DNA of 64,000 nucleotides from Alicyclobacillus hesperidum (GTDB lineage Bacteria; Bacillota; Bacilli; Alicyclobacillales; Alicyclobacillaceae): NCBI RefSeq assembly GCF_900107035.1, contig NZ_FNOJ01000001.1, positions 62,001 through 126,000 on the forward strand, written 5' to 3'. This document shows, piece after piece, positions 24,743 to 34,878 of this stretch. Below the pieces are notes generated by a model. That model saw only the letters and a list, made by a program, of their open reading frames with translations, did not search any database and was not told the DNA's origin. Each line of letters begins with the position of its first letter. The first letter of the stretch is position 1. The position numbers and the translations under genes are program-made.

Positions 24743-24830
24743 CTTTATTCGCGCTGTCGATACGTTTCCCTGCTTGGCGACGCAAGTCGAATAAACCTTT
24801 TTCGCGATCACGATGATGCAGGGGCTATGT

Positions 24831-24864
24831 AAAAAAACTGCCCAGGCAAGCCTGAGCAGTTTTT
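24831..24864 (-). terminator. Intrinsic terminator after crh
   Basis: The inverted repeat AAAAACTGC...GCAGTTTTT with an AGGC-GCCT inner stem ends in seven T on the minus strand. It separates msmX-crh from the chemoreceptor gene. Confidence 0.9.
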
Positions 24865-24868
24865 CAAC

Positions 24869-25129
24869 TTATAAACTTTCTTTCCCCAGCAGATCCGCAA
24901 GGGCAGCTACAGCTTCCGCCTCGTCGCTGCCTTCCGCTTGCAGCGTCACTGTCTCACCGTGCGCGATGGCCATCGACATCACACCAAGTACGCTCTTGGC
25001 GTCAACGAATTGATCATGCTTGCCAACGCGAACGCTACTCGCGAACGACGATGCAAGTTTGACGAACTCCGCCGCAGGACGGGCGGCCAGCCCCTGGGCC
25101 AAGTTAACCGTCAAAACCTTCTCCACCAT
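24869..25129 (-). CDS. crh: Crh-like HPr homologue (Ala15, Ser46)
   Basis: This 86-residue HPr-fold protein has Ala at the active-site position (QGLAARPA, Ala15) where HPr has the phosphoryl-accepting His, so it cannot carry phosphate in the PTS. The HPr-kinase target is kept as Ser46 in AKSVLGVMS. This is the pattern of Crh, whose Ser46-phosphate form is a CcpA corepressor; B. subtilis Crh has Gln at position 15. ATG at 25129 follows GAGGTG and gives the numbering exactly. It begins 15 nt after msmX, so it is probably cotranscribed with the sugar-ABC ATPase. A diverged HPr is less likely because His is lost. Confidence 0.85.
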   Translation of the reverse strand: MVEKVLTVNLAQGLAARPAAEFVKLASSFASSVRVGKHDQFVDAKSVLGVMSMAIAHGETVTLQAEGSDEAEAVAALADLLGKESL

Positions 25130-25144
25130 GGACAACACCTCGAT

Positions 25145-26290
25145 TTAGACCAATGCCTCTTGTTTTGCAGGCGCCGCAAAACCGATGGACACCTCGGTCT
25201 CCGCGTCGAAGATGTGAATCTTGTTCAAATCGACGGCAAGCTTCACAGAGCTGCCAACATGGTACATGTGACGCGGATTGACACGAGCGATGAACGTGTT
25301 TTCGCCGACGCTGCAGTGCAAATACAACTCAGAACCCATGTGCTCGACGACCTCGACCTGTGACTGCAGAACCGTATCCGGATACGTCGTCATAAACACT
25401 TCTTCGTCGTGCAGGTCCTCTGGGCGCACACCAAGTACAACCGGCTTGCCGATCACGCCAGAACTCTTCAACACGCCATAACGCCCTTCGGGCAGACGCA
25501 GTGAGATTGCCGGCGCGCGGAAGTAGAATGCATCGCCATCGGCGACGATTTCGCCGCGAATGAAATTCATGGCCGGGGATCCGATAAAACCTGCGACAAA
25601 CATGTTCTTCGGTTGCGAGTAAACCACTTGCGGCGTATCCGCCTGTTGGATGATGCCATCCCGCATCACACAGATGCGATCGCCCATCGTCATGGCTTCC
25701 GTCTGATCATGTGTAACGTAAATCATCGTCGTTTGCAACCGCTGATGCAATTTACGAATCTCCGCGCGCATCTGCACACGCAGTTTTGCGTCCAAGTTGG
25801 AGAGCGGTTCGTCCATCAGGAACACCTGCGGTTCGCGGACGATAGCGCGGCCCAAGGCAACGCGTTGGCGCTGACCACCTGACAGCGCTTTCGGCTTGCG
25901 GTCCAAAAGATGTGCAATATCCAGGATCTTCGCCGCTTCCTGTACGCGTTTGTCGATCTCGGCCTTTGGCACCTTACGCAACTTCAAGCCGAACGCCATG
26001 TTCTGATAAACGGACATGTGCGGATACAGAGCATAGTTTTGAAACACCATGGCGATGTCGCGATCTTTCGGTGCGACGTCATTTACGCGGCGTTCTCCGA
26101 TGTACAAGTTGCCATCTGTAATGTCTTCGAGCCCTGCAATCATGCGCAATGTCGTCGTTTTACCACAACCGGACGGTCCGACGAACACGACAAATTCCTT
26201 GTCCTGGATGTCGAGATTAAAGTCCTTGACCGTCGGTTCCGATGCACCACTGTATGTCTTGTAAATATGTTCGAGCAACACGCGTGCCAC
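25145..26290 (-). CDS. msmX: Multi-sugar ABC transporter ATPase MsmX/UgpC
   Basis: This 381-residue ATPase energises carbohydrate ABC importers and is often shared by several permeases. It has Walker A GPSGCGKT (38-45), signature LSGGQ (136-140), Walker B FLMDEP (157-162) and a C-terminal OB-type regulatory domain. The N-terminal two thirds read very like B. subtilis MsmX. GTG at 26290 has GGGAGG 9 nt upstream; TTG at 26299 is too close. No permease or binding protein is adjacent, as is usual for this orphan ATPase. Confidence 0.93.
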   Translation of the reverse strand: MARVLLEHIYKTYSGASEPTVKDFNLDIQDKEFVVFVGPSGCGKTTTLRMIAGLEDITDGNLYIGERRVNDVAPKDRDIAMVFQNYALYPHMSVYQNMAFGLKLRKVPKAEIDKRVQEAAKILDIAHLLDRKPKALSGGQRQRVALGRAIVREPQVFLMDEPLSNLDAKLRVQMRAEIRKLHQRLQTTMIYVTHDQTEAMTMGDRICVMRDGIIQQADTPQVVYSQPKNMFVAGFIGSPAMNFIRGEIVADGDAFYFRAPAISLRLPEGRYGVLKSSGVIGKPVVLGVRPEDLHDEEVFMTTYPDTVLQSQVEVVEHMGSELYLHCSVGENTFIARVNPRHMYHVGSSVKLAVDLNKIHIFDAETEVSIGFAAPAKQEALV

Positions 26291-26381: not shown

Positions 26382-27485
26382 TCAAGTTGAAGCAACTTGT
26401 TGTGGCATAAAACGGGCGGCAAGATACAGCGCAATGGCGTCCTCGCCGCGGCGCACGTCAAATCCACTCGCCTCGCACAACCTTTCGATCCGCGCAAGCA
26501 ACGTGTTCCGATGCACGTAGAGCGATCGAGCAGCTTCACTGGCGTTGAGATTGGCCTTTATCATGGCCTCCGTCAGTTCTCGCCAACCGTCCGGCCAATC
26601 CCGCAAAGGCTGCACCGCTCGCGCCGTCAACATCGCCTGCAGCACTTTCCATTGCGCAGCGCCAGCGACGCTAAGCAGATAGAGTGCGGGATCCTCCCCA
26701 AACACGCCGTGCGTACGGTTGTGCCGATCGCCCATGCGTGCCGTCAACTGCAAAGACGCAAGTGCCGAAAAGACCATGTGCGGGCTCACGACAGGCATCG
26801 AGACCCAAACCTTGGCATCGACGAAGGCTTCCGCCCGCACCGCTGCCGCCAATTGCTCTGCAATCGCCAGCAATTTGACAAACGATTGGTCACCGGCGCA
26901 CGCAGGTTCATCTCCGTCACATTCGATCCCGGCAAGATCGTCCTCTGCAAGAAACACTAGCAGACAGGGGCCGTTTGCATCGAACTCGGTCCATCCATGC
27001 CCGAACATCGCCTCGATCACATGTCTTGCAATATCGGCATCCTCCGCCACTTGCCGTTCGCTGTTGGCGTGTTTGGCAGTCCATTCGATCGCGATCAGAT
27101 AGCCAGGGAACTTCTTTTGAGCAAGCGGTCCCCAGTCGCGTGGTTCACCGCGCCCATCGACGCCCGCAACTACAGCGGTCAGTTCCGCGAACGTCATGTC
27201 GCGACAGCCTGCATAGGCCTGTCCCACTGGTCGTCCGCCGCCAAAACGTTGCTCGTGCGCCAGCTGGCGCAAAGTCCAAGCAAGGGCGCACCTCACCTCT
27301 TCAGACGCATCCCAGTTGGGAAATCGGATGGCCCTGCCGTCATCTAGACGTAGCAACCAAGTTTCATCGCGATTGCACCAGCCAAATCTCGGAACATCTG
27401 GCGCATTGTGCGGCCATTCGACGAGCGTCCATTCGATCCCGAAAGCTTTTGTCCAGAGTTCTAACGCATCGTGCCACCAGTCCAT
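26382..27485 (-). CDS. PucR/CdaR-type transcriptional regulator
   Basis: This 367-residue protein ends in the PucR-type helix-turn-helix (about residues 305-362, with ELTEAMIKANLNASEAARSL and VHRNTLLARIERL). The rest matches no sensor domain I can name. It diverges from the malic enzyme gene across a 120-bp gap, so local control of that gene is a reasonable guess. Confidence 0.8.
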   Translation of the reverse strand: MDWWHDALELWTKAFGIEWTLVEWPHNAPDVPRFGWCNRDETWLLRLDDGRAIRFPNWDASEEVRCALAWTLRQLAHEQRFGGGRPVGQAYAGCRDMTFAELTAVVAGVDGRGEPRDWGPLAQKKFPGYLIAIEWTAKHANSERQVAEDADIARHVIEAMFGHGWTEFDANGPCLLVFLAEDDLAGIECDGDEPACAGDQSFVKLLAIAEQLAAAVRAEAFVDAKVWVSMPVVSPHMVFSALASLQLTARMGDRHNRTHGVFGEDPALYLLSVAGAAQWKVLQAMLTARAVQPLRDWPDGWRELTEAMIKANLNASEAARSLYVHRNTLLARIERLCEASGFDVRRGEDAIALYLAARFMPQQVAST

Positions 27486-32058: not shown

Positions 32059-34878
32059 TCAGTTGATGTCATTCGCCAAAGCAGCTTGCAAAATTTCCGC
32101 CTGCACTCGGTTATGAACGTCTGGTGAACTTTCGGCGACAAACCCCTGCTCAGGCCGCCCGATATACCGCAAACGCACACCTTGCGGCAACAAATCTTGC
32201 AAGTGCGGCCGCATATATGCCCAAGGCCCTTGATTCTGGGGTTCTTCTTGCAACCAAACGACTTCTTTAAGGTTCTCGTACGCCACTAGAACTTCCTGCA
32301 ACTGCAAAGTTGGCAGTGGGTACAACTGCTCAACACGAGCCGTCGCGATATGAGCCGTTTCACTCGCATCGCGCTTTCCGATCTCGGCCGTCAGTTCAAC
32401 GCCGACTTTGCCACTCGACAAGACGAGTCGACGCACCTTTTTTGCGGCCGTTTTCGGAATCGCCTTATGCAATACTGGTTGGAAGCGCCCTTCGCAAAAG
32501 TCCGCCGCCTTGGACGCCGCGGCAGCACTGCGCAACAAGCTCTTCGGCGTCATCACGACCAGTGGCCGCGCATCGGCACCTAGGCGAGCCGCCTGCCGAC
32601 GCAACAAGTGGAAATACTGTGCCGACGTGGTGACATTCGCAACGACGATATTGTTGCGGGCTGCCAACTGGAGGAAACGTTCCACACGCGCACTCGAGTG
32701 CTCCGACGCCTGACCTTCGAACCCGTGTGGCAAAAGCAGTACCAATCCGGACGCTTCGCCCCACTTCGAGCGCGCCGCTGCGAGAAACTGGTCAAACATT
32801 GGCTGGCCGACATTCGCAAAGTCGCCAAACTGAGCTTCCCACAAGACAAGCGTCTCTGGCGCCTCGATGTTGTACCCGTACTCAAAACCAATGACGGAGG
32901 TTTCCGAGAGCGGGCTGTTATACACCACAAAGCTCGCTTGAGCGCCCGGCAAATGCTGTAGCGGCATGTACTTATGGCCGTTGTTCACATCGTGCAAAAC
33001 GAGATGGCGCTGCCCGAAGGTCCCTCGTTCAGAATCCTGCCCGGTCAAACGGATAGGCGTGCCCTCACGCAAAATGCTTCCAAACGCCAGGGCCTCCGCA
33101 TGTGCCCAGTCGATGTCCCCGTTATCCACCGCATCGCGGCGCCGCTCCAGAATGCGACGCAACTTCGGATAAACCGTAAAGTTCGGTGGCGTATCGAGCA
33201 AGGAGCGATTGATCTCGCGCAAGTCGTCGATCGAGACCGGCGGGGCCTCCTCTGTTTGCTCGGAGAAATCCTCCACCTTGGCCGTCACGTGGACCTCCGG
33301 ATACTTTTTGTAGGCTTCCATCAGTTGTTCATCGATTTCTTGATCGATCCGCGCAATTTCCCCCGCGTCAATGGCTCCGCGCGACTGCAATTCCGTCGCA
33401 TACAATTCCTTGACCGTCGGATGCGACGCAACCTTCGTATAGAGTACGGGTTGTGTCATGCTCGGATCGTCCGACTCGTTATGCCCCCAGCGGCGATAGC
33501 CGACGAGATCGATCACGACATCTTTGTGGAAGGTCTCGCGGAATGCGAACGCGAGCCGAATGGCGCGGATGCAGGCCTCCGGATTATCCGCGGAGACATG
33601 CACGACAGGCATGTCGTAGCCTTTGGCGATATCGCTGGCGTAGCGGGTCGAGCGGCCCTGATCCGGATCCGCCGTGAAACCGACGTGGTTGTTGGCGATA
33701 ATATGCACGGTGCCCCCGGTGTAGTAGCCAGGAATTTGCGAGAAGTTGAGCGTCTCCGCAACAACACCTTCGCCCGGAAATGCCGCGTCGCCGTGAACGA
33801 GAATCGGAAACGCCTTGTGCACGTCTTGAATCGGTTGCCCTGGACGCGTCCGATCCTCCTGCGCGGCGCGCGCCATTCCTTCGATCACAGGGTTGACCAC
33901 TTCCAGGTGGCTTGGGTTGTTGGCCAGCACATAGCGAGCCTTGCGCCCACTTGCATCGGTGAAGACGCGCGTCCAGCCCTGATGGTATTTGACGTCGCCG
34001 CCCCAGCCGCGCTCATACTCGGCCAACTCTTCGTCACTGGCGAGTTCGTTGCCCGTGTGGAATTCTGCAAAAATCCTCTCGTAAGGCTTTTTCAACACAT
34101 GCGCAAGTATGTTGAGACGGCCGCGGTGTGCCATGCCGACGATCACGTTGGGACAGCCTGCATCGACAGCCAGCGTTGCAAGCGCATCCACCATTGGCAC
34201 GAGCGCATCCAGACCTTCAACAGAAAAGCGCTTTTGTCCAGCAAAACGCCTGTGCATAAACCGTTCAAACATATCCGCCTGCGCTAGCTGGCGGTACAAC
34301 TGCTTCTGCTCTTCCACGCTGAACTGCGTGTGAAAGCGGCGAGTCTCGACTTGCTCGGTCAGCCATTCGCGTTCCTGACGATTCGCCAAGTGCGCAAATT
34401 CGTAACCGAGGTCTCGACAATATACAGCCTTCAGTGCCTCTACGGCCGCACGTGCATCGCGTGCCTGCCCGGCGACCGGACCGCCGACGATGGTCGCTGG
34501 CAATTGAGACAGGTCAGACTCGATAATTCCATAGGTGGACGGTTCCAACTCAGGGGAAGACTCGGCAGGAAACATAGGATCTGTGTCGGCAGCGAGGTGT
34601 CCGTATGTACGGATGCTACGCACATATTCTGCAACGCGTGCAACGACGTCCGGTGACACACCTACCCCGACGCCCGTAGTGTGGACTTTACGCGTTTCGA
34701 GCGAAGTGGCGACAGCTTGCCCCGGATCTCCATAGCGATTAAACATCTCGCGCGTTTCTGCGCTCACAGCGTTCGGATCGCGCTTGTACTCCTCATACAG
34801 TTCCAGCAAGTACCCAAAATTCGGCCCGAAGAATTGTTGCCAGAATGATTGCAACGGTACAGGCTGCTCGTTCTCCAT
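32059..34878 (-). CDS. odhA: 2-oxoglutarate dehydrogenase E1
   Basis: This 939-residue thiamine-diphosphate enzyme decarboxylates 2-oxoglutarate. It has the N-terminal segment [20 protein letters not shown], the ThDP-binding loop [19 protein letters not shown] and IANNHVGFT, and a transketolase-like C-terminal half. ATG at 34878 has GAGGGG 6 nt upstream; the longer frame adds a sequence with no ribosome binding site. Confidence 0.96.

Follow-up and report, generated by a model that had tools for sequence, protein, structure and literature searches.

Signalling by HprK through Ser46 is usually described as an addition to the PTS, and the regulation of MalK by EIIA-Glc is known as inducer exclusion. 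Crh, which lacks His15 and is phosphorylated at Ser46, controls methylglyoxal synthase according to the available excerpt of PMC9631020. In Geobacillus kaustophilus, as described in the accessible part of PMC13130090, ribose repression is mediated by HprK, Crh and CcpA rather than by HPr. No paper combining Alicyclobacillus, Crh and HPr was found in the literature searched; in the available portion of PMC11212667, which mentions catabolite repression and CcpA, Alicyclobacillus occurs in the reference list only. Here we describe a real, conserved and unusually placed HPr paralogue, encoded next to the multi-sugar ABC ATPase gene msmX in a 64,000-nucleotide stretch of Alicyclobacillus DNA (the window).

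The msmX–HPr pair and its conservation

The HPr-like protein matches the Pfam PTS-HPr family (PF00381) with 97.3 bits against a cut-off of 23, and its AlphaFold model (pLDDT 86) has the HPr fold, the top Foldseek match being the HPr structure 3le1 (TM 0.90). Numbered from the ATG given in Table 1, which has GAGGTG 6 nt before it and for which a GTG at 25138 is a possible alternative, the protein has Ala15, Ala16, Arg17, Pro18, Ser46, Leu48 and Met51. Since Ala, or in some orthologues Ser, takes the place of the His15 of a PTS phosphocarrier HPr, PTS phosphotransfer cannot pass through it. The product of the neighbouring gene scores 489.8 bits with NF008653 (cut-off 432), as expected of a CUT1 ATPase of the MsmX/UgpC type, and has ABC_tran, OB_MalK and TOBE_2 domains. 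It is the one MalK-type ATPase found in the genome among 16 matches listed, of which the second and third were read: MsmX scored 849 bits and the runner-up 162, the latter being by eye a CBS-containing ATPase, presumably of the osmoprotectant type.

Table 1. Features of the msmX–HPr region, in window coordinates.
Feature	Position	Strand	Details	Basis
Terminator-like hairpin	24829..24868	minus	3' of the HPr-like gene, common to msmX	Fold calculation
msmX-linked HPr-like gene	24869..25129	minus	86 aa; Ala15/Arg17/Ser46; ATG at 25129, TAA ending at 24869	Pfam PTS-HPr, AlphaFold model, Foldseek
msmX	25145..26290	minus	Multi-sugar CUT1 ABC ATPase; GTG start at 26290 with GGAGG 9 nt upstream; gene end at 25145	NCBIfam NF008653, OB_MalK, TOBE_2
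PucR-type regulator gene	26382..27485	minus	91 nt upstream of msmX	HTH_30, 54.3 bits

Between the end of msmX and the start of the HPr-like gene there are 15 nt, and the 47 nt from the HPr-like stop form a single U-tailed hairpin (-23.1 kcal/mol, z -6.2), a stability matched by 0 of 200 shuffles. The sequence-only reading had placed the gene 15 nt after msmX with one terminator for both, and the gap and the hairpin bear this out. The consensus terminator scan, which returned two terminator-like sites against 3.3 expected by chance, did not list this hairpin; we propose that it was missed because its U run pairs with an A run and was counted into the stem. A promoter consensus scan gave no promoter-like site on the minus strand between msmX and its upstream gene. 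The sole minus-strand site (27567–27540) precedes the gene of the PucR-type regulator, and the three promoter-like sites in all are near the chance level of 1.4. The PucR-type gene may share a transcript with msmX, and its product may control the msmX–HPr operon; of the 17 related loci, 16 show a PucR-like match upstream of msmX, and the remaining one ends before this position can be judged. Elsewhere in the window, at 1818–2846, there is what appears by eye to be a protein of the LysM type containing a series of APGYPQAPGYAAPTPG repeats.

The HPr-like protein was searched for in 41 genomes from the family and in 59 from the order. It is carried by 17 of the 59, namely all 15 of the genus and both genomes of a second genus, with scores of 144–159 bits, the next score in the order being 124. 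The gene lies behind msmX on the same strand in all 17 loci, at a distance of 15–47 nt in 16 of them and 157 nt in one, so that the gene link proposed at the outset holds wherever the gene occurs. Position 15 is Ala in the 15 proteins of the genus and Ser in the two of the second genus, which rules out a local mutation of His15 and shows the Ala15 of this protein to be fixed among its close relatives. Arg17, Ser46 (the residue for HPr kinase), Leu48 and Met51 are kept in all 17, and the combination of Ala15 and Ser46 on an HPr fold, as first read from the sequence, is likewise constant in the genus. The reading frame is intact throughout. Both rates could be estimated for 11 of the 13 pairs of HPr-like genes examined, and in these dN is far lower than dS (for example 0.010/0.77, 0.023/0.85 and 0.0/0.31), the other two pairs not being estimable. 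The recurrence of the gene pair and of the loss of His15 across 17 genomes, together with the low dN in these 11 pairs, makes the arrangement more than chance. Ten of the 17 loci are identical over a 600-base core to named records, from A. sacchari, A. tengchongensis, A. fructus, A. mali, A. sendaiensis, A. fastidiosus, A. acidiphilus, Alicyclobacillus sp. SP_1, A. montanus and A. suci; the genome of the window is close to the first two, with 98% protein identity, but identical to neither.

A search at class level found members of this group in 16 of 398 genomes, a set that evidently lacks one known carrier, and all were from the same two genera; members scored 144 bits or more and the best non-member 113. 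All of the 12 outside loci that were fetched encode His15, and none had an msmX match in flanks of about 1.5 kb per side. A scan of genome contigs with two short peptide patterns, either of which had to be matched exactly, gave ten Alicyclobacillus loci and two remote MAG HPrs (42% and 38% identity).

Signalling partners here and in relatives without detected enzyme I

The PF00381 search found four HPr-family proteins in the genome. Besides the msmX-linked protein these are a His15 HPr encoded between mtlD and ptsI, another His15 HPr from an operon of the fru type, and a Phe15/Ala18 protein adjoining whiA and yvcK, the position of Crh. One enzyme I was found, in PTS gene order on the same contig as mtlD. 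A genome without a PTS is thus ruled out here by enzyme I and the two His15 HPrs, and catabolite control in this genome need not run without PTS input, since PTS HPr and enzyme I are present. The earlier scenario of catabolite control in the absence of a PTS HPr therefore fails for the genome in which it was proposed, but fits A. montanus, Alicyclobacillus sp. SP_1 and A. acidiphilus. In one other genome of the family a fru-type HPr region occurs twice on the same contig, about 7.4 kb apart, with identical translated HPr.

Both partners expected of a Ser46-based corepressor and looked for in the genome, HprK and CcpA, have counterparts, the second as a candidate. One HprK was found. The CcpA candidate scores 384 bits, the next LacI-type protein 261, and falls under the TIGR01481 equivalog cut-off of 442, as do the best matches of all eight genomes compared. 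It aligns end to end (310 bits) with the solved structure 3oqm, which we take to be CcpA of B. subtilis, and keeps the C-terminal strip QPMYDFGAVSMRLLTK, presumably the contact for Ser-P-HPr. The window itself offers no cre support, since its one loose match, at 34176, compares with 1.55 expected by chance.

HprK was found in all 41 genomes of the family, and the P-loop GSSGIGKSE is intact in the four sequences read; as the control search missed the HprK that B. subtilis presumably has, the HprK search was used for presence only. Seven genomes have a second HprK-like match of about 197–202 bits besides the main one. Enzyme I (PF05524) gave no match in nine of the 41 genomes, or six of the 33 of good quality, an absence judged by a single Pfam model in draft genomes, though the control for this model was positive in 7 of 14 genomes, among them B. 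subtilis. Alicyclobacillus sp. SP_1 and A. montanus, both 99% complete, are among the genomes with no enzyme I match. The search for HPr-family proteins gave a single match in each, the msmX-linked Ser15 protein, and so neither Crh nor a His15 HPr, and both keep HprK with an intact P-loop and a CcpA match of 381 bits. If HprK and CcpA still cooperate in these two genomes, the msmX-linked protein must therefore be the link. This suggests that in A. montanus and Alicyclobacillus sp. SP_1 sugar preference is controlled without the usual PTS uptake, and it is the strongest support for a PTS-independent corepressor, in relatives rather than in the present genome. A. acidiphilus, also with no enzyme I match, has two HPr-family matches, the Ala15 protein and a Phe15 Crh. 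Two further genomes of the family (G024 and G028) keep HprK, have no enzyme I match and have a whiA-linked Leu15 Crh as their only HPr-family match.

Possible roles of the msmX-linked HPr

We favour, with a probability of about 0.6, the reading that the protein encoded beside msmX, as a second HPr without His15, relays the HprK/Ser46-P signal to CcpA and is linked to the sole MalK-type sugar ATPase found. Having no histidine at position 15, it cannot accept a PTS phosphoryl group there, and the retained Ser46 and Arg17 would make it a substrate of HPr kinase. If the known mechanism of HPr and Crh applies, sugar influx would raise FBP and ATP, HprK would phosphorylate Ser46, and the Ser-P form would bind CcpA, with repression of catabolic genes. 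The supply of corepressor would rise with ABC sugar-uptake capacity because one transcript would yield both the protein and MsmX, the motor common to sugar ABC importers; such co-transcription is suggested by the 15-nt gap and the common hairpin. In this genome the protein would work beside PTS HPr and the Phe15 Crh, and in A. montanus and Alicyclobacillus sp. SP_1 it would be the only HPr-family protein found to serve HprK and CcpA. It may be a dedicated CcpA corepressor, as had been proposed. Counting against this reading are the score of the CcpA candidate under its cut-off, the lack of cre support in the window and the absence from the promoter scan of a site directly before msmX. In this genome, moreover, Crh and PTS HPr could already serve as corepressors, and the fourth paralogue may therefore do something else.

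Such another role might be exerted on MsmX itself. The HPr-like protein, in its Ser-P or its unphosphorylated form, would then bind the C-terminal regulatory domain of MsmX and throttle the CUT1 importers that share it, a kind of inducer exclusion by a dedicated HPr-like protein that would be analogous to EIIA-Glc acting on MalK. We think this bolder option unlikely. The linkage to msmX in all 17 genomes that carry the gene is what it would predict, as is the presence of OB_MalK and TOBE_2 in the only MalK-type ATPase among the matches listed, but co-expression would explain the linkage too. The accessible text of PMC7658222, which suggests that the sharing of MsmX may add regulation over sugar importers, has no occurrence of HPr or Crh, and no contact between HPr and MsmX was found in the literature examined.

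It is improbable, if not without precedent, that the msmX-linked HPr is instead an allosteric partner of a metabolic enzyme, with Ser46-P switching the contact off. Crh is such a partner of methylglyoxal synthase (MgsA; available parts of PMC9631020 and PMC13130090), and the HPr fold does bind enzymes, glycogen phosphorylase complexes being among the fold matches. The conserved neighbours, however, are msmX and a PucR-type regulator rather than a glycolytic enzyme, and the loci yielded no gene for a partner.

Descent and comparison with known systems

The sequence-only reading had called the protein Crh-like. Residues were tallied in 109 of the 120 HPr-family matches from the 41 genomes, two more, of this genome, being read directly and nine left unread. 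The 109 loci comprise 53 with His15, 36 whiA-linked Crh, 17 msmX-linked HPrs and three of an odd type. Three HPr-like loci, in as many genomes, apparently lack the GLHARP loop and keep the Ser46 region AKSVLG. Position 15 of the 36 Crh is Leu in 21 and Phe in 15; the Crh of the genus, including that of this genome, has Phe15 with Ala18 (GLFARAA) in all 15 genomes, whereas the remaining 21 Crh loci have Leu15/Pro18. Position 48 is Met in every one of the 36 Crh and Leu in all 17 msmX-linked HPrs. NF010354, which we take to be the Crh-type model, gives the msmX-linked HPr 89.2 bits against a cut-off of 123, though the Phe15 Crh of the genome is also under it, at 116.1.

The place of crh in the yvcJ-yvcK-whiA-crh cluster is taken in this genome by the Phe15 protein and not by the msmX-linked HPr, and a Crh at whiA/yvcK coexists with the msmX-linked gene in all 15 genomes of the genus. 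Because the Phe15 Crh sits at this locus, the msmX-linked HPr is probably not a Crh orthologue; the identification with Crh is not upheld, and the name belongs to the whiA/yvcK protein.

The msmX-linked HPrs form one clade in both trees that were calculated (98/87 and 98/83). In the first tree this clade is next to a His15 HPr whose gene adjoins ptsI (100/84). In the second, from which identical rows and six long-branch rows were dropped, the clade joins 15 His15 HPrs, mostly ptsI-linked (93/96), and Crh stays apart; the 14 outside His15 rows in this tree had been found by likeness to the clade, which favours grouping with His15 proteins, but the first tree, which does not contain them, also sets a His15 HPr next to the clade. 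HPr is too short for firm deep branching, and when the clade was forced together with Crh the likelihood was lower but AU tests did not reject the constraint (p 0.070 and 0.124). An independent second loss of His15 is the better reading of these sequences, yet unproven, as a shared origin with Crh is not rejected.

A Crh orthologue that moved to msmX would agree with the missing His15, the retained Ser46, the AU results and the two genomes of the second genus, which yielded no other Crh. The separate whiA/yvcK Crh in all 15 genomes of the genus that bear the msmX-linked gene, the constant difference at position 48 and the placing of the clade with His15 HPrs in the trees make such a relocation very improbable. 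That the gene is a decaying HPr copy without function, as the loss of the catalytic histidine might suggest, can be practically dismissed in view of the 17 open frames, the low dN in 11 of 13 pairs and the two hprK-bearing genomes that gave no other HPr-family match.

A wider proposal would be that Alicyclobacillus has derived a second, independent Crh-like protein from PTS HPr and bound it to msmX, that its Ser46-P directly controls the shared ABC motor, and that in PTS-free relatives it carries the whole HprK signal. Taken together this is rather doubtful; if true, it would be an ABC-based counterpart of PTS carbon control. What is observed is a conserved HPr-type protein that cannot join the PTS relay and is tied to ABC sugar uptake, and it is worth following because its role can be tested directly in the two relatives that appear to be free of a PTS. 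With A. montanus and Alicyclobacillus sp. SP_1 one can ask whether catabolite repression in Firmicutes can run on Ser46 alone, and whether the shared ABC ATPase has an HPr-type regulator of its own.

As in EIIA-Glc and MalK, a small carbon-signal protein is paired here with a sugar ABC ATPase bearing a regulatory domain at its C terminus, but the protein is of HPr type, its readout would be Ser46-P, and the association is one of gene linkage alone. With the HPr (PtsH) of Bacilli, to which it is closest in the trees, the msmX-linked HPr shares a nearly identical Ser46 region and differs in the replacement of His15 by Ala or Ser. Like Crh of Bacillus subtilis it has the HPr fold without His15, keeps Ser46 and Arg17, and is expected to be read by HprK and CcpA. 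Unlike Crh it adjoins msmX in 17 of 17 genomes, away from whiA/yvcK, has Leu48 rather than Met48, groups with His15 HPrs, and has Ala or Ser at position 15, where B. subtilis Crh has Gln and the Crh of this family Leu or Phe. The HprK–Crh–CcpA system of G. kaustophilus, as far as the accessible part of PMC13130090 describes it, is alike in that catabolite repression runs mainly through a His15-less HPr paralogue; there, however, Crh is this paralogue and the genome encodes HPr as well.
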